A model generated the notes under the pieces. It saw nothing but the letters and a program-made list of their open reading frames with translations. It made no database searches and was not told the origin of the DNA. A stretch of DNA of 49,332 nt from Bacteroidia bacterium (GTDB taxonomy: Bacteria > Bacteroidota > Bacteroidia > Chitinophagales > UBA2359): positions 1 through 49,332 of the forward strand of contig JAUHXA010000056.1 in the NCBI GenBank assembly GCA_030427245.1. Reading direction: 5' to 3'. Position numbers and translations under genes: made by a program. Positions 2,645 through 49,332 of this stretch are shown here, one piece after another. Every line of letters starts with the position of its first letter. Within the stretch, counting starts at the first letter, position 1.

Positions 2645-3391
2645 ATGCAAAAAATATCAACCTCTTACATCATCGAACAATACCAAACGGGTGTAGAAAA
2701 CTACAAACAATACACCCTTGAAGTGGGTTTGTGGGATTCTGAAAAGTATGTTTTCAACAAATACCTCAAACCATCAGATACCATTTTGGACATGGGTTGT
2801 GGAACAGGGAGAACGACTTTTCCGCTGTATGCAATGGGCTATCAGGACATCAAAGGCTTGGATTTGACTCCCAAAATGATTGAGATAGCAAAAGGTTTGA
2901 ATGTTCATTTTGGCGTGGAGATTCCTTTTGAAGTAGCCGATGTGAGGGAGTTGGATTTTGAAGGAGGCGTTTTTGATGTGGTGATTTTTTCTTTCAATGG
3001 GCTGATGTCGATTCCCAGTATTGAAGAGCGAGAGAAAGCATTGAAGGAGATTGGACGGGTATTGAAGGTAGGTGGAATATTTATTTTCACAACGCATGAC
3101 CGAGCGCAAGAACCTCAGTTTTTTGACTTTTGGAAATCAGAAGAACAAAAATGGGCAAATGGCAATCAACGTACTGATTTATACGAATTTGGCGACCTTA
3201 TTACATTCTCCAAAAATGAAACCCGTGAAATTTTTATTCATATTCCCATTCAGTCCGAAATTGAAGCTTTTGTCCGAAAAGGAGGTTTTGAAGTAATGGA
3301 AACTTTTTATCGAGCAGACAAGTTTGATGAGCCTCAGAAGATAAAGGATAAATCTGGGGAATGTCGGTTTTGGGTGGTGCGGAAAAGATAA
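2645..3391 (+). CDS. class I SAM-dependent methyltransferase
   Basis: A 248-residue protein with the Rossmann-type SAM-binding motif I LDMGCGTGRT (48-57), an acidic strand-2 motif (GLDLTPKMI), an ADVREL segment at motif II/III and a post-core VLKVGGIFIF strand. This matches the Methyltransf_11/25 group. The substrate cannot be read from the sequence. The ATG at 2645 lies 63 bp after the ATPase gene on the same strand, so co-transcription is possible. It converges on the DUF58 gene with 32 bp between the stop codons. Confidence 0.85.
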   Translation: MQKISTSYIIEQYQTGVENYKQYTLEVGLWDSEKYVFNKYLKPSDTILDMGCGTGRTTFPLYAMGYQDIKGLDLTPKMIEIAKGLNVHFGVEIPFEVADVRELDFEGGVFDVVIFSFNGLMSIPSIEEREKALKEIGRVLKVGGIFIFTTHDRAQEPQFFDFWKSEEQKWANGNQRTDLYEFGDLITFSKNETREIFIHIPIQSEIEAFVRKGGFEVMETFYRADKFDEPQKIKDKSGECRFWVVRKR

Positions 3392-3423
3392 AACATAGGC
3401 GGAGTCCTTTCTTTTGAAACAAT

Positions 3424-4362
3424 TCAAATTCGCATCTTACTCCGTTTCACCAAATAAGGCAGCAAAATCTGTCGAAAATCTTGATTGATGTCCGCTTCTA
3501 CAAAGTCAATACTGAACTGACTACACTTGAGTTTCAACTCGGTCAAGAATTTTTTCATTTGGTTTTGGTAGTAATCCTTCACCTGATTCGGTTGGAGTTT
3601 GACCTCCTCCCCTGTTTCGATGTCAATAAAAACGTAAGGACGATTTTCAAACTCAAAATCCAACTCCTTCTTTTTGTCCACTACATGAAACAAAATCACC
3701 TCGTGTTTGCTATACTTCAAGTGCTGCAAAGCCGAGAAAATCTCCTCCGAATTTTCGGCATTTTCAAACATATCACTGAAAATAATCACCAAAGAACGCT
3801 TGTGAATGTTGTCTGCAATTTGATGCAAACATTTGGCGGCGGCTGTCGACTTGTTGCGTTGAGGATTGTCGAGTAGGTTTTGCAGTTGGGCGGTCAAAAG
3901 ACGTTGGTGAACAGTGGTAGATTTTGCTTTGGTGTGAAAGTCAATCTCATTGGAGAAAATGGTCAGCCCGACCGCATCCCTTTGTTTTTTCAACATATAC
4001 ATCAATGCCGAAGCTCCCAAGGCAGAGAATCGCAATTTGTTGATTTTCGGATTGTTGCCCTCTCCTGCATCTTCTGGGAAATACATGGAAGAAGAGGCAT
4101 CCAATACGATTCGACACCTCAGATTGGTTTCTTCTTCAAAACGTTTTACAAACATTTTGTCGGTTCGGCCATAGACTTTCCAATCTATATTTTTAATCGA
4201 ATCACCAGGATTGTAAAGTCTGTGTTCGGCAAATTCGACCGAAAAACCATGAAAGGGGCTTTTATGTAAGCCTATGATGAATCCTTCTACTACCTGTTTG
4301 GCGAGAAGTTCAAGATTGTCAAATTGATGCAATTCTTGGGGGGTGATTATTTCTTGTGCCAT
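3424..4362 (-). CDS. DUF58 domain protein (vWA-like, MoxR-partner family)
   Basis: A 312-residue DUF58 protein. The conserved block GDSIKNIDWKVYGRTDK (53-69) is diagnostic. It is followed by a von Willebrand A-like fold with a metal-site motif D88-A-S-S-S92 (IVLDASSSMYF). Family members usually sit beside a MoxR AAA+ ATPase and act with it in chaperone-like maturation or envelope stress functions. No moxR gene is seen in this window, so here it is solitary or its partner is elsewhere. There is no signal peptide or membrane segment, consistent with a cytoplasmic protein. Confidence 0.88.
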   Translation of the reverse strand: MAQEIITPQELHQFDNLELLAKQVVEGFIIGLHKSPFHGFSVEFAEHRLYNPGDSIKNIDWKVYGRTDKMFVKRFEEETNLRCRIVLDASSSMYFPEDAGEGNNPKINKLRFSALGASALMYMLKKQRDAVGLTIFSNEIDFHTKAKSTTVHQRLLTAQLQNLLDNPQRNKSTAAAKCLHQIADNIHKRSLVIIFSDMFENAENSEEIFSALQHLKYSKHEVILFHVVDKKKELDFEFENRPYVFIDIETGEEVKLQPNQVKDYYQNQMKKFLTELKLKCSQFSIDFVEADINQDFRQILLPYLVKRSKMRI

Positions 4363-22698: not shown

Positions 22699-23670
22699 AT
22701 GAAAGCGATCCTCTGTAAAGAACTCGGTCCTCCTTCCAGTTTGGTTTTGGAAGATATTCCTTCACCTGTTCCTGGCAAAAAAGAAGTACTGGTGCAAATC
22801 AAAGCTTGTAGCATCAACTTCCCTGATACCTTGATTATTCAAGGCCTGTATCAATTCAAACCTGAATTACCTTTTTCTCCAGGTAGCGACATTGCAGGAG
22901 TGGTGAAAGCGGTGGGCGAAGGTGTGAAACATGTTAAGGTCGGTGACGAAGTGTTTGGTTTGGTGTCACATGGTGGTTTTGCAGAAGAAGTGATTGTGCC
23001 TGCAAACAGTTGTTTTCCAAAGCCTCCAATGATGGATTACAAGATTGCAGCGTCGTTTATGATGGCTTATGGTACTTCACATCATGCCTTGAAAGACCGA
23101 GCCAAATTAAAGGAAGGAGAAACGCTGTTGGTTTTGGGGGCTTCGGGTGGAGTCGGTTTGGCTGCCGTAGAATTGGGCAAAATCATGGGCGCAAAAGTAA
23201 TTGCAGCCGCTTCAACAGCCGAAAAATTGGCGGTTTGTAAAGAGAAAGGGGCGGATGAATTGATTAATTATACCACAGAGGATTTGAAGAAACGAGTCAA
23301 GGAATTGACCAATGGTAAAGGAGCTGATGTGGTCTACGACCCTGTTGGAGGGGCTTATACGGAGGCAGCTTTGCGGGCTACAGCTTGGGAGGGTCGTTTT
23401 TTGATAGTAGGTTTTCCTGCAGGCATCGCCAAGATTCCGATGAATTTACCTTTATTGAAGGGCTGTCAAATTGTAGGCGTTTTTTGGGGTAGTTTTGCAA
23501 TGCGTGACCCACAACGCAATATGGCTAATACCATGGAATTGATTCAAATGTACGCCAAAGGGCAACTGAAGCCGCATATTCATGCAACGTATTCGCTGGA
23601 GGATGCGCCAAAGGCATTGGAGGAGATGATGAATCGCAAAGTGAAGGGCAAGGTTATCATTGAGCCTTAG
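22699..23670 (+). CDS. zinc-independent MDR oxidoreductase (NADPH:quinone reductase-like)
   Basis: A 323-residue medium-chain dehydrogenase/reductase. The N-terminal GroES-like domain has SINFPDTLIIQGLYQ and PFSPGSDIAGVV; the zinc-ligand cysteines of alcohol dehydrogenases are absent, as in the quinone oxidoreductase and enoyl-reductase branch. The nucleotide-binding site is LGASGGVGLAAVELG, followed by AAASTAEKL. The C-terminal MNRKVKGKVIIEP is typical. With a dienoyl-CoA isomerase-like gene 12 bp upstream and an acyl-CoA synthetase downstream, a role as an enoyl- or dienoyl-CoA reductase is plausible, but this is inferred from context. Confidence 0.85.
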   Translation: MKAILCKELGPPSSLVLEDIPSPVPGKKEVLVQIKACSINFPDTLIIQGLYQFKPELPFSPGSDIAGVVKAVGEGVKHVKVGDEVFGLVSHGGFAEEVIVPANSCFPKPPMMDYKIAASFMMAYGTSHHALKDRAKLKEGETLLVLGASGGVGLAAVELGKIMGAKVIAAASTAEKLAVCKEKGADELINYTTEDLKKRVKELTNGKGADVVYDPVGGAYTEAALRATAWEGRFLIVGFPAGIAKIPMNLPLLKGCQIVGVFWGSFAMRDPQRNMANTMELIQMYAKGQLKPHIHATYSLEDAPKALEEMMNRKVKGKVIIEP

Positions 23671-23718
23671 TGTTTATGACGAATGACAGTATAAAGTCAC
23701 AAATCAAATATCGTTTAC

Positions 23719-23847
23719 TACTACCGCACAAAATAATTTTTGAACCACAAAAGTATCAAAAGGGCACAAAAGAGATGGTTGAATTTCAGTTCTTTACTTT
23801 TGTTTTCTTTGTGCCTTTTGTGGTTAAATTAAAAATGTACAGTAGTA
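23719..23847. mobile_element. MITE-like palindromic element with a flanking direct repeat
   Basis: An AT-rich element of ~129 bp whose ends are inverted: TACTACCGCACAAAAT on the left and the complement of TACTACTGTACATTTT on the right, continuing inward through ACCACAAAAG and GGCACAAA on both sides. The sequence ATCGTTTA occurs just outside each end (23710-23717 and 23849-23856), a plausible 8-bp target duplication. It has no coding capacity. It sits between the reductase and acyl-CoA synthetase genes. A copy of its left ~84 bp lies inverted on the far side of the synthetase gene. Confidence 0.75.
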
Positions 23848-23958
23848 AATCGTTTATACATCATCTATACTTGAGTAGTGTGTGATTTTTGAAGTGTGAT
23901 TTTCAGTTCACAAAAGAATAATTTTAAATCAATCAATTATAAACAATTACAAACAAAA

Positions 23959-25635
23959 ATGATGGCAGCAGCAATGAAAACATTGATAGAATCCTTTTAC
24001 GATAAGGAAAAAAACGTACCTAATAAGCCTTTTTTGCGTCAGCCTTTTGGCGACCGTTGGGAAGTTTACACCTATGGTGAAGTCGGGCAAATGGCTCGAA
24101 AACTGGCAACAGGCTTGAAGTCTTTGGGCTTACCTCCCAAAAGTCACATCGGCTTGGTGTCTAAAAATTGCAGAGAATGGATCATTGCAGATTTGGCAAT
24201 TATGATGGCGGATTATGTTTCTGTTCCTTTTTTCCCAACTTTGAGCGGCGACCAAATTGCGGAAGTATTGAAGTTGGGGGATGTAAGTGCTTTGTTTGTT
24301 GGAAAATTAGATGTTTGGGAAGACATGAAAAATGGCGTTCCTTCTGATATGCCAACCATTCGTTTTCCACACTATGAAGGGGGATCTAAAGTGGAAGTGG
24401 GTGAAGAATGGAACGAGTTTATCAATCGTTTTGAGCCAATTCAAGGTGAACCCTCTGCAAAACTGGACGACCTTTGGACCATTATTTTTACTTCTGGAAC
24501 AACAGGTACTCCTAAAGGGGTGATGTTGAATCATCGTGCGCCTGCCGAATTGATGGAAGCAACCAAACCTCGAAACGTATTGAAGTTGGACTTCAATGGC
24601 AACAATGATTTCTTCTCTTATCTGCCTTTGAATCACATTGCAGAGCGAGCAATTGTGGAGGGCGGTTGTTTGGCATTTGGAGGTCAAATCTCTTTTTCGG
24701 AGTCTTTGTCTACTTTCGCCAAAAACTTGCAAGAATCGTATCCTACTACTTTCTTTGCAGTACCTCGAATTTGGACAAAATTCCATTTGGGGATTCTATC
24801 TAAAATGCCGCAAAAGAAATTGGATTTGTTTTTGAAAATACCCATTCTTTCGGGAATTGTTAAGAAAAAATTGCGGGCAGGCTTGGGTTTATCCAAAACG
24901 AGGGTTTGTGTTTCGGGGGCTGCTCCTATTCCTCAATCACTCAAAGATTGGTATGCCAAAATTGGTATTCCGATTGCAGAAGGCTACGGAATGACCGAAA
25001 ACTGTGCGGCTTGTACCTTTTTGACTACTGACGAAGACAAGCCTGGTTCGGTCGGAAAGCCACAAGACGGTGTAATTATCAAAATTGACCCTGAAACAGA
25101 GGAAGTCTTGATGAAAGCTCCTTATGTCATGACGGGTTACTACAATTCTCCCGAAAAAACAGCTGAAACGCTTGAAGATGGTTGGCTGCATACAGGTGAT
25201 CAAGGGCGACTCGATAAGAACGGATATTTGTATTTGACAGGTCGAGTGAAAGATACGTTCAAGACTGCAAAGGGGGAATTCATCGTTCCTGCGCCTATCG
25301 AATGGGGCTTTGAGAACAACAGCGATATTGAGCAACTCTGTTTGTTGGGATTGGGATTGCCGCAGCCTATATTGTTGGTCGTTCCTTCTGAAATCGGAGT
25401 ATTGAAGTCTAAAGAGGATTTGAGAGCGAGCCTTGCGGATACTTTGACAAAGGTGAATTCAACTTTGGAAAACTACCAAAGGGTTTCTACTATTGTGGTG
25501 GTGCAAGATGCTTTCAGTGTTGAAAATGGTATGTTGACCCCTACTTTGAAGGTGAAACGTAGCAAACTGAACCAACGTTATAAAAATTTATTGAACGCTT
25601 GGCACGAACACGAAGAAAAAGTAGTTTGGGAGTAA
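23959..25635 (+). CDS. AMP-dependent acyl-CoA synthetase (long-chain fatty acid CoA ligase type)
   Basis: The ATG at 23959 (MMAAAMKTLIESF) is chosen as start because the upstream extension of the frame is AT-rich and lies next to the MITE-like element; ATGs at 23962 and 23974 are alternatives. The ~558-residue product has the ATP-binding P-loop IIFTSGTTGTPKGVM, the A5-type motif YGMTENCA, the A7 Asp in GWLHTGDQG, and the hinge GRVKDTFKTAKGEF. It activates a carboxylic acid, probably a fatty acid, to an acyl-AMP and then acyl-CoA. Together with the upstream isomerase and reductase it fits fatty-acid uptake and degradation. Repeat copies flank the gene on both sides. Confidence 0.9.
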   Translation: MMAAAMKTLIESFYDKEKNVPNKPFLRQPFGDRWEVYTYGEVGQMARKLATGLKSLGLPPKSHIGLVSKNCREWIIADLAIMMADYVSVPFFPTLSGDQIAEVLKLGDVSALFVGKLDVWEDMKNGVPSDMPTIRFPHYEGGSKVEVGEEWNEFINRFEPIQGEPSAKLDDLWTIIFTSGTTGTPKGVMLNHRAPAELMEATKPRNVLKLDFNGNNDFFSYLPLNHIAERAIVEGGCLAFGGQISFSESLSTFAKNLQESYPTTFFAVPRIWTKFHLGILSKMPQKKLDLFLKIPILSGIVKKKLRAGLGLSKTRVCVSGAAPIPQSLKDWYAKIGIPIAEGYGMTENCAACTFLTTDEDKPGSVGKPQDGVIIKIDPETEEVLMKAPYVMTGYYNSPEKTAETLEDGWLHTGDQGRLDKNGYLYLTGRVKDTFKTAKGEFIVPAPIEWGFENNSDIEQLCLLGLGLPQPILLVVPSEIGVLKSKEDLRASLADTLTKVNSTLENYQRVSTIVVVQDAFSVENGMLTPTLKVKRSKLNQRYKNLLNAWHEHEEKVVWE

Positions 25636-25649
25636 ATCTTGGGATAAAA

Positions 25650-25733
25650 CAAAAGTAAAGAACTCAACTTCAACCATCTCTTTTGTGCCCTTTTGATACT
25701 TTTGTGGTTCAAAAATCATTTTGTACAGTAGTA
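25650..25733. mobile_element. partial inverted copy of the MITE-like element
   Basis: The reverse complement of these 84 bases matches 23719-23802 with about 5 differences (roughly 94%). The other end of the element (the second ACCACAAAAGGCACAAAG arm) is missing, so this is a truncated copy or one derived by partial duplication. It starts 15 bp after the synthetase stop codon. Confidence 0.75.
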
Positions 25734-25736
25734 TGA

Positions 25737-25775
25737 AAGCGAGTAGTAAAATAACCTACTACTCGCTTCTATTTT
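25737..25775. terminator. intrinsic terminator between convergent genes
   Basis: An 11-bp perfect stem, AAGCGAGTAGT (25737-25747) with ACTACTCGCTT (25758-25768), a 10-base loop, then CTATTTTT. It is well placed to end the synthetase transcript and overlaps the stop codon of the facing NADAR gene. Confidence 0.7.
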
Positions 25776-26215
25776 TCCTGTAATTCCTTCCTTACCAGCG
25801 TCAATATTTGCCCTAATTTATTTTTTCCTTTGTCGTCTCCTCCATCTCCCCAATAACTATCATTGGAAGTGTGTTCCACAATTTTTGCATCCCCCGTAGA
25901 AAGCAATAATTCCTTCAATTTATCGTGTTGGCTAAACTTCGCTCTCACTGCATCCAACATCACCGAATCCTTTACCTTCTCCCAATCCAATCGCAATTTC
26001 ACCTTTCGACTTCTACCCATTTGAGCCGCTAACATAGGTTTTGCAGCCTTTTGGATTTGGGCTTCATACGGTGTTCCTTTGAATTTTTGGGCTTGAAAAT
26101 AATGCTCGGATGTCGCCCATATTTTGCCTTTTAATTTGATAGGATAAAGGGCAAAGTTGGAGAATTCGCCATACGCATCTGCAGTGCTGTAAAACTTGAT
26201 AGTGTTGGTGTCCAT
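25769..26215 (-). CDS. NADAR-family N-glycosidase-like protein (YbiA type)
   Basis: A 148-residue protein of the NADAR/DUF1768 family. Typical blocks are FSNFALYPI near the N-terminus, WATSEHYFQAQKF (conserved Glu and His), a central LRLDWEKVKDSVM and the C-terminal SYWGDGGDDKGKNKLGQIL. The family is predicted to cleave N-glycosidic bonds; members act on riboflavin-pathway intermediates or ADP-ribose-type modifications. It is 22 bp downstream of the small zinc-finger gene on the same strand, so co-transcription is likely. The exact substrate is unknown. Confidence 0.88.
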   Translation of the reverse strand: MDTNTIKFYSTADAYGEFSNFALYPIKLKGKIWATSEHYFQAQKFKGTPYEAQIQKAAKPMLAAQMGRSRKVKLRLDWEKVKDSVMLDAVRAKFSQHDKLKELLLSTGDAKIVEHTSNDSYWGDGGDDKGKNKLGQILTLVRKELQEK

Positions 26216-45844: not shown

Positions 45845-48800
45845 TCACTCTTTCACAAACTTACTTCTCACAAATCCTTCTGGAGTTTCGATAGAAAGTG
45901 AATAAACACCTGTTGGTAAGTGTCCAACTTCCAACTGTATGGTATTGTCGCCAGGAGCAGTTTTCAAAGACTGTTTGGACAATAACTTTCCAGTTACATC
46001 ATACATCAATACATTCACCTGTGAGCCTTCGGTGTTGAACAATACGGTCAAATCATCAGTCGCAGGTATGGGGAATATACTTTGTAATACCAAGGTCGAA
46101 GCTTTAGCTATCGGTGCATCGGCATATACTCCTTTTCCTCCGCTGCTTCCTGCCAAACTAACCGTTGCAGCGCCTTCATCGTCTTCAATTGGAGTCGTTG
46201 TCGCATTGTTGTTCGGTGTTGAATCAAAATCCATTTGGTTGGCAGCAGTAACCTGAGCAAAATTCACAACAGGATTGTTGAGATTCAAGGTAAACAAGAC
46301 CAAATCCATCGTAGCACTCGCTCCTCCATTCAATGTTCCAACTGTCCATTTTTGGAAATAAAGATTGAAGTTTCCTTGTGATACGGATTTATTGGAGAAG
46401 GCCATACCATTCGGAATAGGATTCATTATTTCTACGCCTGTTGCCGTCAAAGTGCTGTTGTTGGTGACAGTGATGGTGAATGTAACGTGTTGGTAGAGTG
46501 TCGTAAATGGTTTATCAACGGTTACATTGACCTCCAAATCAATCTTATCTCCTCCACCGCAAGTTTCAACGGTTTTGACAACCATATTGGATTCACCTAC
46601 ATATTCTTCACATCCATGTCTGCGAGAACATCGAATGTAATAAGTAGTCTGTGTAATCGGACCTGGGTTATAATTGGAAGAGTTGGAGTTTGGAATCTCT
46701 GACCAATCTGTGCTGTTTATGGTAAAAACTGTACCTGTTGTACTCTTGAACCATAAGTATTCCAAAGCACCTGTTCCGCCTGAAGGCAAGGCCGTATTGA
46801 CCATGTTAATCGGGTCGTAAGAAGGGCTACAACCTGTTTCGTCGTAACCAATCGTGCCGCCATTCGTCACGTTGTCACATTCCGCTGGAGGATTGACCGT
46901 TGCATCGTCTTCGTCGTCTTCATTCGGAGTATTGTTGCTGTCGTTGCCAGGCGTAGAATCCAAATCGGGTTCATTGGCGGCTTGGACTTGGGCAAAATTG
47001 GTAATCGGTGCATTGATTTGCAGTACTTCTGCGACAATGGTCAGAGTAGCAGAGGCATTCTTCGCCAAACTTCCTACTGTCCAAATACCTGTATTTTCGT
47101 CATAACTACCCTGTGATTCGTTGGCATTGTCAAAAGACAATTCACTCGGCAATACATCTTTTACGCTCACACCTGTGGCAATCGCTGGCCCTTTGTTGGT
47201 GACAACCAACGTGTAGGTCAAATTATCACCTACTTCTGCTTCAAATTGATTCACCGTTTTGGTCAATTGCAAATCAATCTTGTCGGGAACAATATCAGAA
47301 CCAATTGTTGCATCGTCTTCGTCGTCTTCATCGGGTGTATTGTCGGTATCGTTGCCAGGTGTAGAATCCACATCCGTTTCATTGGCGGTGCGTACCTGTG
47401 CAAAATTCACGATAGGTGCGCTGTCATTCAAAATGAAAATTTTGATGTCCAAAGTAGCGCTTTCGTTGGGTGCAAGGCTGCCAATCGTCCAAATAGCATT
47501 CCAAGAACTGAATGTTCCTTTTGAAGCTGTGCTGCCGCTAAATGCTTGTCCAGCAGGAATTTGGTCTTTGACGGTCACACCTGTTGCCGTCATTGGTCCT
47601 TTGTTGGTAACTGTGACGGTGAAAGTACGATGTGTATATTTGACCAATTGGGTATTGTCAACCGTTTTGGTCAATTCCAAATCAATGAAATTACCTGTTG
47701 GAGTAGGAATAATGGTCACTGCAGATTCATCGTCTTCGTCTGGTGTTTGGTTGGTATCATTGCCAGGTGTAGAATCAATGTCGGATTCATTGGCCGTTTG
47801 CACTTGGGCAAAACAAGTGATAGGATTCGGAATGCTTACCACATTTACCGTCACCTTCAATGTTTTGGTTTGGTTCTTCAAGACTGACCCAACTGTCCAA
47901 GTTTTTGTCGCATTGTTATAAGAAGTTCCCGAACTTGGAATGTCGCTAACATATTGAAGTCCTGCTGGTGAGTTGATTTTCACCGTCACGCCTGTTGCGT
48001 CTGCAGGGCCATTGTTCAGCAACGTTAAGGTATAGGTTACTTGGCTTCCAGCTACTGCTTGAGACACATTGGCTGTTTTAATTAACTGCAAATCAATCTT
48101 GTCGGGCTGTACATCGGGACTTATGGTAGCTGCGGCCTCATCGTCTTCGTTTGGTGTATTGTCGGTGTCATTGCCTGGTGTAGAATCTACATCCGTTTCG
48201 TTGGCAGTTTGCACTTGGACAAAATTGGTAATTGGAGTATTCACATTCAAGATGAAAAGCTTCAATACTAGTGTCGCAGATTGGTTTGGAGCCAATGTAC
48301 CTACATTCCACGTTTCATTGAACAATGAAAAAGTTCCTTGACTCGCCGTAGCACTGGTAAATGCCAAACCTGCTGGGATTTTATCTTTTACGGTTACACC
48401 AGTTGCAGCAATAGCACCTTTGTTGGTAATCGTAATGGTATAGTTTCGGTTGGTAAATTTGACCAGCAATGGATTGTCCACTGTTTTGGTCAATTCCAAG
48501 TCAATCTTATCTCCTGTTGGACAAGTATTTGGACAACTTCCACCACAGTCAATGCCTGTTTCATCGCCATTTTGAATGCCATCACTACAAGTTGAACATG
48601 CCGTTGGGCAACTTCCTCCACAGTCAATGCCTGTTTCATCGCCATTTTGAATGCCATCTGTACAAGTTGGGCAAGCCGTTGGGCAACTACCACCGCAATC
48701 TATGCCTGTTTCGTCGCCATTCTGAATGCCATCGCTACAAGTTGAACATGCCGTTGGACAACTGCCACCGCAATCTATACCTGTTTCATCCCCATTTTGA

Positions 48801-49332
48801 ATGCCATCAGAACAAGTAGGGCAAGCTGTTGGACAACTTCCACCGCAATCAATACCTGTTTCGTCGCCATTTTGAATACCATCTGTACAAGTTGGGCAAG
48901 CCGTTGGGCAACTGCCACCGCAATCTATACCTGTTTCATCCCCATTTTGAATGCCATCAGAACAAGTAGGGCAAGCTGTTGGACAACTTCCACCGCAGTC
49001 AATGCCTGTTTCGTCGCCATTTTGAATGCCATCACTACAAGTTGGACATGCTGTTGGGCAACTCCCACCGCAATCAATGCCTGTTTCATCGCCATTTTGA
49101 ATGCCATCACTACAAGTTGCACAAGCTGTTGGGCAACTTCCACCGCAATCAATGCCTGTTTCATCGCCATTTTGAATGCCATCACTACAAGTAGCACATG
49201 CTGTTGGGCAACTTCCACCACAGTCAATGCCTGTTTCGTCGCCATTTTGAATGCCATCACTACAAGTCGCACATGCTGTTGGGCAACTGCCACCACAGTC
49301 TATACCTGTTTCATCGCCATTTTGAATGCCAT
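45845..49332 (-). CDS. T9SS-exported adhesin-like protein with Cys repeats and five DUF11 domains (5' end outside window)
   Basis: The frame is open from the right window edge to TAA at 45845 (at least 1162 residues); no start codon is needed inside the window, and the TTG at 48499 is merely internal. Order from the N-terminal side: at least ten 25-residue Cys repeats (DGIQNGDETGIDCGGSCP), five DUF11-type beta-sandwich domains (each TKTV-x-TVTNKG-x-ATGVTVKD-like) separated by acidic linkers (DSTPGNDTDNTPDEDDE), a non-DUF11 insert with its own Cys (GGTIGYDETGCSPSY) before the last DUF11 domain, and a type A T9SS C-terminal sorting domain (IFPIPATDDLTVLF, PTGVYSLSIETPEGFVRSKF). It is probably attached to or released at the cell surface for adhesion. 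Confidence 0.9.
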   Translation of the reverse strand, partial: GIQNGDETGIDCGGSCPTACATCSDGIQNGDETGIDCGGSCPTACATCSDGIQNGDETGIDCGGSCPTACATCSDGIQNGDETGIDCGGSCPTACPTCSDGIQNGDETGIDCGGSCPTACPTCSDGIQNGDETGIDCGGSCPTACPTCTDGIQNGDETGIDCGGSCPTACPTCSDGIQNGDETGIDCGGSCPTACSTCSDGIQNGDETGIDCGGSCPTACPTCTDGIQNGDETGIDCGGSCPTACSTCSDGIQNGDETGIDCGGSCPNTCPTGDKIDLELTKTVDNPLLVKFTNRNYTITITNKGAIAATGVTVKDKIPAGLAFTSATASQGTFSLFNETWNVGTLAPNQSATLVLKLFILNVNTPITNFVQVQTANETDVDSTPGNDTDNTPNEDDEAAATISPDVQPDKIDLQLIKTANVSQAVAGSQVTYTLTLLNNGPADATGVTVKINSPAGLQYVSDIPSSGTSYNNATKTWTVGSVLKNQTKTLKVTVNVVSIPNPITCFAQVQTANESDIDSTPGNDTNQTPDEDDESAVTIIPTPTGNFIDLELTKTVDNTQLVKYTHRTFTVTVTNKGPMTATGVTVKDQIPAGQAFSGSTASKGTFSSWNAIWTIGSLAPNESATLDIKIFILNDSAPIVNFAQVRTANETDVDSTPGNDTDNTPDEDDEDDATIGSDIVPDKIDLQLTKTVNQFEAEVGDNLTYTLVVTNKGPAIATGVSVKDVLPSELSFDNANESQGSYDENTGIWTVGSLAKNASATLTIVAEVLQINAPITNFAQVQAANEPDLDSTPGNDSNNTPNEDDEDDATVNPPAECDNVTNGGTIGYDETGCSPSYDPINMVNTALPSGGTGALEYLWFKSTTGTVFTINSTDWSEIPNSNSSNYNPGPITQTTYYIRCSRRHGCEEYVGESNMVVKTVETCGGGDKIDLEVNVTVDKPFTTLYQHVTFTITVTNNSTLTATGVEIMNPIPNGMAFSNKSVSQGNFNLYFQKWTVGTLNGGASATMDLVLFTLNLNNPVVNFAQVTAANQMDFDSTPNNNATTTPIEDDEGAATVSLAGSSGGKGVYADAPIAKASTLVLQSIFPIPATDDLTVLFNTEGSQVNVLMYDVTGKLLSKQSLKTAPGDNTIQLEVGHLPTGVYSLSIETPEGFVRSKFVKE
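48566..49332 (-). repeat. 75-bp tandem repeats coding for 25-residue Cys units
   Basis: The same sequence block recurs with a constant 75-bp period at 48566, 48641, 48716, 48791, 48866, 48941, 49016, 49091, 49166, 49241 and 49316, continuing past the edge. Each unit encodes four cysteines and an acidic DGIQNGDETGID stretch that resembles a calcium-binding loop. Units differ at only a few, mostly synonymous, positions, and no indel breaks the frame. Confidence 0.9.

Follow-up and report, generated by a model that had tools for sequence, protein, structure and literature searches.

The window analysed here lies in contig C147 and is a stretch of 49,332 nucleotides from a Bacteroidia bacterium whose assembly comprises 7.58 Mb in 187 contigs. 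An acyl-CoA synthetase-like gene, so named by an earlier sequence-only reading from its letters alone, lies between two intergenic copies of a short palindromic element: copy A, upstream, and copy B, a partial copy in the opposite orientation. Both copies are found at the positions which that reading had given. The features are as follows, in window coordinates.

23709-23717, + strand: left target duplication of copy A, tatcgttta, identical at 8/9 bases to 23848-23856
23718-23847, + strand: MITE copy A, near-complete, 130 bp, with slightly decayed ends CTACTACCGCAC ... GTACAGTAGTA
23738-23829 (boundaries approximate), + strand: palindromic core of copy A, AACCACAAAAG ... CTTTTGTGGTTAAA, with homology to repeat arrays at a GxxExxY gene
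23848-23856, + strand: right target duplication of copy A, aatcgttta
23959-25635, + strand: acyl-CoA synthetase-like gene between copies A and B, with relatives at 64-68% protein identity
25646-25735, - strand: MITE copy B, far half missing, reference positions 1-90 only
25723-25735, - strand: intact (perfect) end of copy B, CATACTACTGTAC on the - strand

Copy A is 96% identical to the reference copy of the family over positions 3-131 of 133, and atcgttta stands on either side of it. The sequence-only reading had described a palindromic element of ~129 bp with ATCGTTTA on both sides, which is exact, and an inverted partial copy past the gene (84 bp, ~94% identical), which comes close to the 92% match over 93 nt that we measured between the two arms. 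Copy B begins 10 bases past the synthetase stop codon, its other end is missing, and the nine bases outside it (aaagcgagt) differ from those outside copy A. The open frame of the synthetase-like gene runs from a GTG at 23896; the ATG at 23959 is the likelier start, as the related locus L084 is matched from residue 1 there. The closest relatives of this gene belong to Saprospiraceae, Chitinophagales and unclassified Bacteroidetes metagenome genomes. Elsewhere in the window, its end is repetitive (48469-49332), with overlapping frames of repeated HSQCLFHRHFECH / QQHVLLVVMAFKMA motifs.

A MITE family with nine-base target duplications

The repeat pair in the window is not a product of chance, because the core pattern TTTGTGCCNTTTGTGGTTNAA, allowing three mismatches, occurs three times in the window against a mean of 0.03 in 100 shuffles, and because 99 or more distinct copies that keep one end or both were counted in the genome (one partial copy, which sits in a duplication in L303, is counted twice among them). 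The reference copy (L007) is 133 bp long, contains no gene, and carries terminal inverted repeats CATACTACTGTACA at both ends; the family makes 9-bp target duplications. Searched at E<=1e-8, the genome contains at least 109 distinct matches, 84 with both ends, 15 with one and 10 with none; nine of the ten endless matches belong to arrays, either next to a GxxExxY gene or in L244. Simpler patterns agree with this abundance. The end 13-mer with up to one mismatch is found at 152 sites or more, against 18 for the reversed control, and the core 18-mer with up to two mismatches at 128 or more, against 2 for its control. With copy A as the query, the best 40 of 167 candidates were scored and all 40 match. 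Core copies without ends also occur, singly in L236 and L238 and as a 98-bp tandem array in L244. The window pair is not the sole close pair in this genome, since at least six pairs lie within ~2.5 kb of each other (contigs C18, C52, C129, C147, C164 and C181), a count made by hand with no chance expectation computed.

The target duplications are clear at the level of the family. Of 83 near-full copies taken, 81 had nine bases on both sides, and at the exact reference boundary the flanks agree at 9/9 bases in 44 and at 8/9 in a further 12 (56/81 together). When left flanks were paired with the right flanks of other copies, 8/9 was reached in 0.05% of pairs and 9/9 never. Among copies matched over all 133 positions, 46/59 reach at least 8/9 and 35/59 reach 9/9. 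The remaining 25/81 near-full copies fall below 8/9, some of them without an end, which fits decay. In 61 duplications, collected with a shift of up to three bases allowed, the first position is held by A 43 times and by G 12 times, and T stands second in 33 and last in 30. This insertion signature is of the DDE type, and we therefore infer a transposase. Four other full copies are identical to the reference, so that five identical copies stand at five different places. Together with the perfect duplications, these bear out the earlier suggestion of a non-autonomous mobile family with recent activity, and the genome search proposed with it, for further copies, ends and duplications, returned all three; the element is far from being found only at this locus.

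A rival reading takes the palindrome for a conserved regulatory hairpin (a terminator, a REP-like sequence or a structured RNA) and not for an inserted element. In its favour, the element strand folds better than all 200 of its shuffles (z = -3.1), and both copies are intergenic. We consider this highly improbable, and largely refuted by the 9-bp duplications, given also the identical copies at unrelated places, the absence of the element from the relatives examined, and the lack of any Rfam family at gathering score in 23600-25850. A secondary effect on neighbouring transcripts is possible. REP palindromes, described as 20-40 bp long (PMC3733652), are likewise dispersed outside genes; the MITE differs from them in its much greater length, its inverted ends and its 9-bp duplications. 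In its ends, duplications, copies and absence from examined relatives, the window element works as a classical MITE.

Beyond this genome the family is barely visible. The reference copy was compared with 60 genomes, this one among them, with 14 candidates scored per genome, and 5 of the 59 others match at E<=0.001, over stretches of at most 53 bases that are mostly core. No match to the MITE was found in 72,556 plasmid and 50,697 phage records, and a search of the open-licence PMC literature found no paper on a MITE in Saprospiraceae. In one relative (genome G008, L175), core-like palindromes form a tandem array of ~137-bp units.

The synthetase segment and its flanks

Two inverted copies 1.8 kb apart and this much alike led the sequence-only reading to propose that the intervening segment could invert or move as a unit. 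We find no support for this, because the duplication of copy A is intact on both sides and nothing matching it lies outside copy B. Copy A keeps its own duplication (8/9), the two halves of which would have been parted by an inversion through both copies, and was therefore inserted singly, its flanks not exchanged with those of copy B; no duplication surrounds the pair, as one would a composite transposon, and copy B is without one end. In the relative L081 the upstream gene (75%) precedes the synthetase gene (68%) as it does here, with order and orientation unchanged, no element, and ~1.7 kb of other DNA between the two. It follows from L081, too, that the element is not a conserved feature of the locus, as had been allowed for. 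Among the 40 loci L081-L120, none of which matches the element at E<=0.01, a close copy of the upstream gene occurs in L081 alone, L102 and L103 matching at 27%. On this evidence the synthetase segment is no moving or flipping unit, and there is very little chance that the inverted copies flip or carry the gene. Copy A would instead represent one insertion upstream of the synthetase gene, and copy B the remnant of a separate insertion behind it, both belonging to a family that was presumably moved in trans by a DDE transposase.

The search for a parent transposase

A transposase with matching ends, which the sequence-only reading had suggested looking for, was sought and not found, in a search that is incomplete in an assembly of 187 contigs. 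A whole-genome pattern of the exact MITE end leading into a non-MITE interior returned only one more MITE copy, and this pattern misses partners that have A at the tested position and all changed ends. Looser paired ends, sought in 1.51 Mb of pooled and partly overlapping sequence, gave 15 pairs outside MITEs, none of them convincing: two have 8/9 matching flank bases with ends at only 9/14, the others are without a good duplication, and between the ends of the L371 pair there is no 120-aa open frame. In L076 (contig C106) a single exact end leads into other sequence, and this candidate was rejected because the end belongs to a MITE into which another IS has inserted, beginning directly after the MITE end. 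This IS, which starts CTTATGTTTCGG, is seen at four contig ends (L161-L164; contigs C106, C26, C126 and C110), in one case inserted into a MITE end.

A DDE_Tnp_1 profile search of the genome found three loci, with no matching ends around any of them and no DDE transposase of the IS50 kind between MITE-type ends. One, L303, is an IS1634-family gene (NF033559, E=1.6e-118) and was rejected as a parent: MITE ends adjoin it because a partial MITE sits in the long duplication around this IS. The other two, L304 and L305, are decayed, one a remnant with 13 stops and one a broken gene, and were set aside as well; the open frames in them match models of IS4/IS701 type and of IS4, with scores under the curated cut-offs, the broken gene being nearest NF033592 (E=2.1e-25). 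The IS in L303 (contig C146) has the inverted repeat CTTGACTTTGACAGTTG and lies between perfect 397-bp direct repeats (716-1112 and 3112-3508). For IS1634 and IS1549, long duplications of variable length (8-514 bp) have been reported, with no mechanistic model offered (PMC2266710), and L303 is a case of such an IS1634-type duplication in a Bacteroidota genome.

The ends themselves offer a lead. Scored against a published table of IS4 groups (PMC2266710), with ten groups tried, the MITE ends agree with IS50 at 6/7 conserved positions at each end and with IS4Sa at 3/3 at each end (p ~0.02-0.03 per end); fits of one end alone are about as good for IS231 (left, p=0.025) and ISH8 (right, p=0.016). 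The duplication lengths given in that table are 8-9 bp for IS50, 8-10 for IS4Sa, 10-12 for IS231 and 10 for ISH8. Ends and duplication length taken together thus weakly favour the IS50 or IS4Sa groups of the IS4 family, as a lead only: the MITE ends fit the listed positions weakly and the duplication length agrees, whereas the DDE_Tnp_1 search recovered no intact transposase of this kind. Because no transposase with MITE ends was found, the parent element and the order of events are reconstructed here by inference.

The palindromic core and GxxExxY genes

GxxExxY (TIGR04256) genes lie near such repeats. A TIGR04256 profile search of this genome found three domains in two genes, L191 and L192, the latter with two. 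The L191 gene, whose protein is PDDEXK_3 by Pfam (PF13366, E=5.8e-37), stands between tandem arrays of AACCACAAAAGTATCAAAAGG...CTTTGTGCCTTTTGTGGTT, and the MITE core matches these arrays at 75-78% over 88-94 bp, with a local alignment score of 93 against a maximum of 34 in 300 dinucleotide shuffles. The homology stops at the core: the outer MITE ends score only 13-17 against the L191 arrays, and neither these nor the L244 arrays hold a good match to the CATACTAC ends. The second gene (L192, contig C131) is a 290-aa frame with two GxxExxY domains and no CACAAAAG arrays. It is enclosed by a different inverted repeat, with arms of ~120 bases that are themselves palindromic in style (1307-1429 and 2273-2392; score 110 against a maximum of 29 in 200 shuffles). 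Both GxxExxY genes of this genome therefore have the same architecture with unrelated repeat sequence, and the CRCRRAG sequence that is common elsewhere is not universal. Downstream of the L192 gene (L192/L193), the DNA seems to hold a gene for a reverse transcriptase together with a small one, an arrangement like that of a diversity-generating element. In one published case a GxxExxY domain was called close to a reverse transcriptase, at a place that a second program assigned to cas4 (PMC8934634).

The pattern extends well beyond this genome. GxxExxY matches were found in 101/198 Bacteroidota genomes, about half of those sampled, and in a few other phyla. From many more matches we took 30 Bacteroidota loci, plus L191, and compared the 350 bases on either side of each gene for inverted matches, in an orientation-independent test with the 99th percentile of shuffles as threshold. 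The threshold is exceeded at 22/31 GxxExxY loci, against 1/31 outer flanks and 3/67 synthetase loci; among 930 cross pairs 10.9% do so too, since the loci have a motif in common and some are orthologous. CRCRRAG, in successive copies mostly 9, 10 or 11 bases apart, occurs within 200 bases of the gene pointing inward on both sides at 23/30 loci, outward on both sides at 3/30 and in far flanks at 0/30. The motif was written after viewing its own loci, so it is the orientation and far-flank controls that carry weight. Seven plasmid loci behave similarly, with CRCRRAG inward on both sides in 4/7, outward in 1/7 and far in 0/7. Three of the seven exceed the inverted-match threshold (Bacteroides finegoldii, Gemmatirosa and Sphingomonas parapaucimobilis, the last with its GxxExxY gene between fabD and fabG); the Bernardetia locus, where the repeats read CACAGAG, falls just below it at a score of 26, and the Treponema, Prevotella and Persicobacter loci are also below. 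A control family, TIGR02436, which we take to be a four-helix bundle family, has CRCRRAG on both sides at 2/30 Bacteroidota loci (L258-L287). At 16/30 of these same loci the threshold is nonetheless exceeded, by repeats that differ in both sequence and period. GxxExxY genes are therefore not alone in having short-period inverted repeats around them. No account of the GxxExxY flanking repeats was found in the open-licence PMC literature.

In an alignment of 31 GxxExxY proteins, residues E, D, E, K and Q are invariant in 31/31, at positions that are presumably those expected of the catalytic type in a PD-(D/E)XK fold. With the PDDEXK_3 match of the L191 protein, this conservation makes it likely that nuclease activity is under selection.

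At one locus the gene and its repeats are present or absent as a block. All eight genomes of the G155 genus have a match to this locus, and four of them carry the whole GxxExxY unit (G155, G110, G218 and G083). Its left arm is AACCACAGAGGGCACAAAGG in G155, G110 and G218; two right-arm endings occur, CTTTGTGGTT (G155 and G110) and CTCTGTGGTT (G083 and G218, the latter with extra bases before it). A fifth genome, G094, retains a shortened remnant, and in G230, G120 and G124 the unit is absent and the two neighbouring genes adjoin. Those three are the more distant genomes (77-81% for the downstream gene; the other genomes have 88-94% over their matched pieces), and a single ancestral insertion is therefore the simplest account, loss being possible. 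Read by eye, the junctions show no duplication like that of the MITE. This one presence/absence locus, the recurring gene-plus-inverted-repeat architecture and the patchy spread partly show, and otherwise suggest, that GxxExxY units are mobile. The DNA of one such unit was not found in phage records, nor was a GxxExxY relative found in viral contigs by a pattern search that is weak for distant relatives, and 0/23 genomes reached via L121-L160 (Pseudomonadota by title, mostly Alteromonas) have GxxExxY.

The GxxExxY units resemble the MITE in having repeats homologous to its core, and differ in that the MITE has no gene and has extra, IS-like ends. Its 133 bp leave no room for a gene, and the gene between copies A and B is the synthetase, not a GxxExxY gene. 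Descent of the MITE core from a gene-less palindrome of the GxxExxY-flanking kind would be the best reading of this homology. We regard it as probable that the window element is an IS-type MITE that captured a GxxExxY-type palindrome, that copies A and B are separate insertions, and that the GxxExxY palindromes belong to a wider unit. The core would then be such a palindrome and not leftover transposase sequence, the homology being observed and the capture conjectural. Most likely the palindrome came to lie between two IS ends, and the short product may then have been copied around the genome by the IS transposase, now lost or not assembled. It could also be that the route was the reverse, and that a palindrome already in place acquired IS ends through recombination. 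The wider unit would consist of a GxxExxY gene between inverted repeats, mostly CRCRRAG arrays of ~9-11 nt, present or absent as a block.

It is also conceivable, though we think it unlikely, that the MITE is an ordinary deletion derivative whose core is subterminal DNA of the parental IS, and that MITE copies seeded the GxxExxY arrays. Bacterial MITEs can derive from IS elements by deletion, as in the IS982-derived MITE of Cardinium (PMC9769881), and the core-only copies could be decayed MITEs. The same style of repeat, however, flanks GxxExxY genes in genomes where the MITE was not found or not sought, and the L191 and L244 arrays contain no good match to the CATACTAC ends. The family resembles IS-derived bacterial MITEs of the Cardinium type in being a gene-less derivative spread through the genome of one lineage; it differs in that its core matches another repeat family and not the interior of a known IS, and in having no parent that we could find.

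That the GxxExxY nuclease itself moves the MITEs seems to us very unlikely. The core does resemble the repeats beside the nuclease gene, and catalytic-type residues are kept; but the mobile boundary of the MITE is a CATACTAC end with a 9-bp duplication, a boundary lacking in the L191 and L244 arrays, and no comparable duplication was seen, by eye, at the one GxxExxY unit with empty sites. For the GxxExxY units themselves, the obvious mechanism to consider is that the nuclease cuts the inverted arrays. More tentatively, GxxExxY genes may form the centre of a kind of insertable element that has not been described. It would comprise a PD-(D/E)XK nuclease gene with inverted palindromic repeats on either side, for the most part 9-11-nt CRCRRAG arrays; it would insert between neighbouring genes as a block and give off palindromes that carry no gene. 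One of these would have been taken up by an IS and multiplied into the MITE of this window.

The MITE is of a familiar kind, though its burst of ~100 cleanly duplicated insertions in one Saprospiraceae-like genome is a good marker of IS activity. Its core leads to a nuclease family for which we found no account of a role and whose genes stand between inverted short-period repeats. Should the block pattern prove general, a common intergenic repeat and the patchy distribution of GxxExxY genes would both be accounted for.
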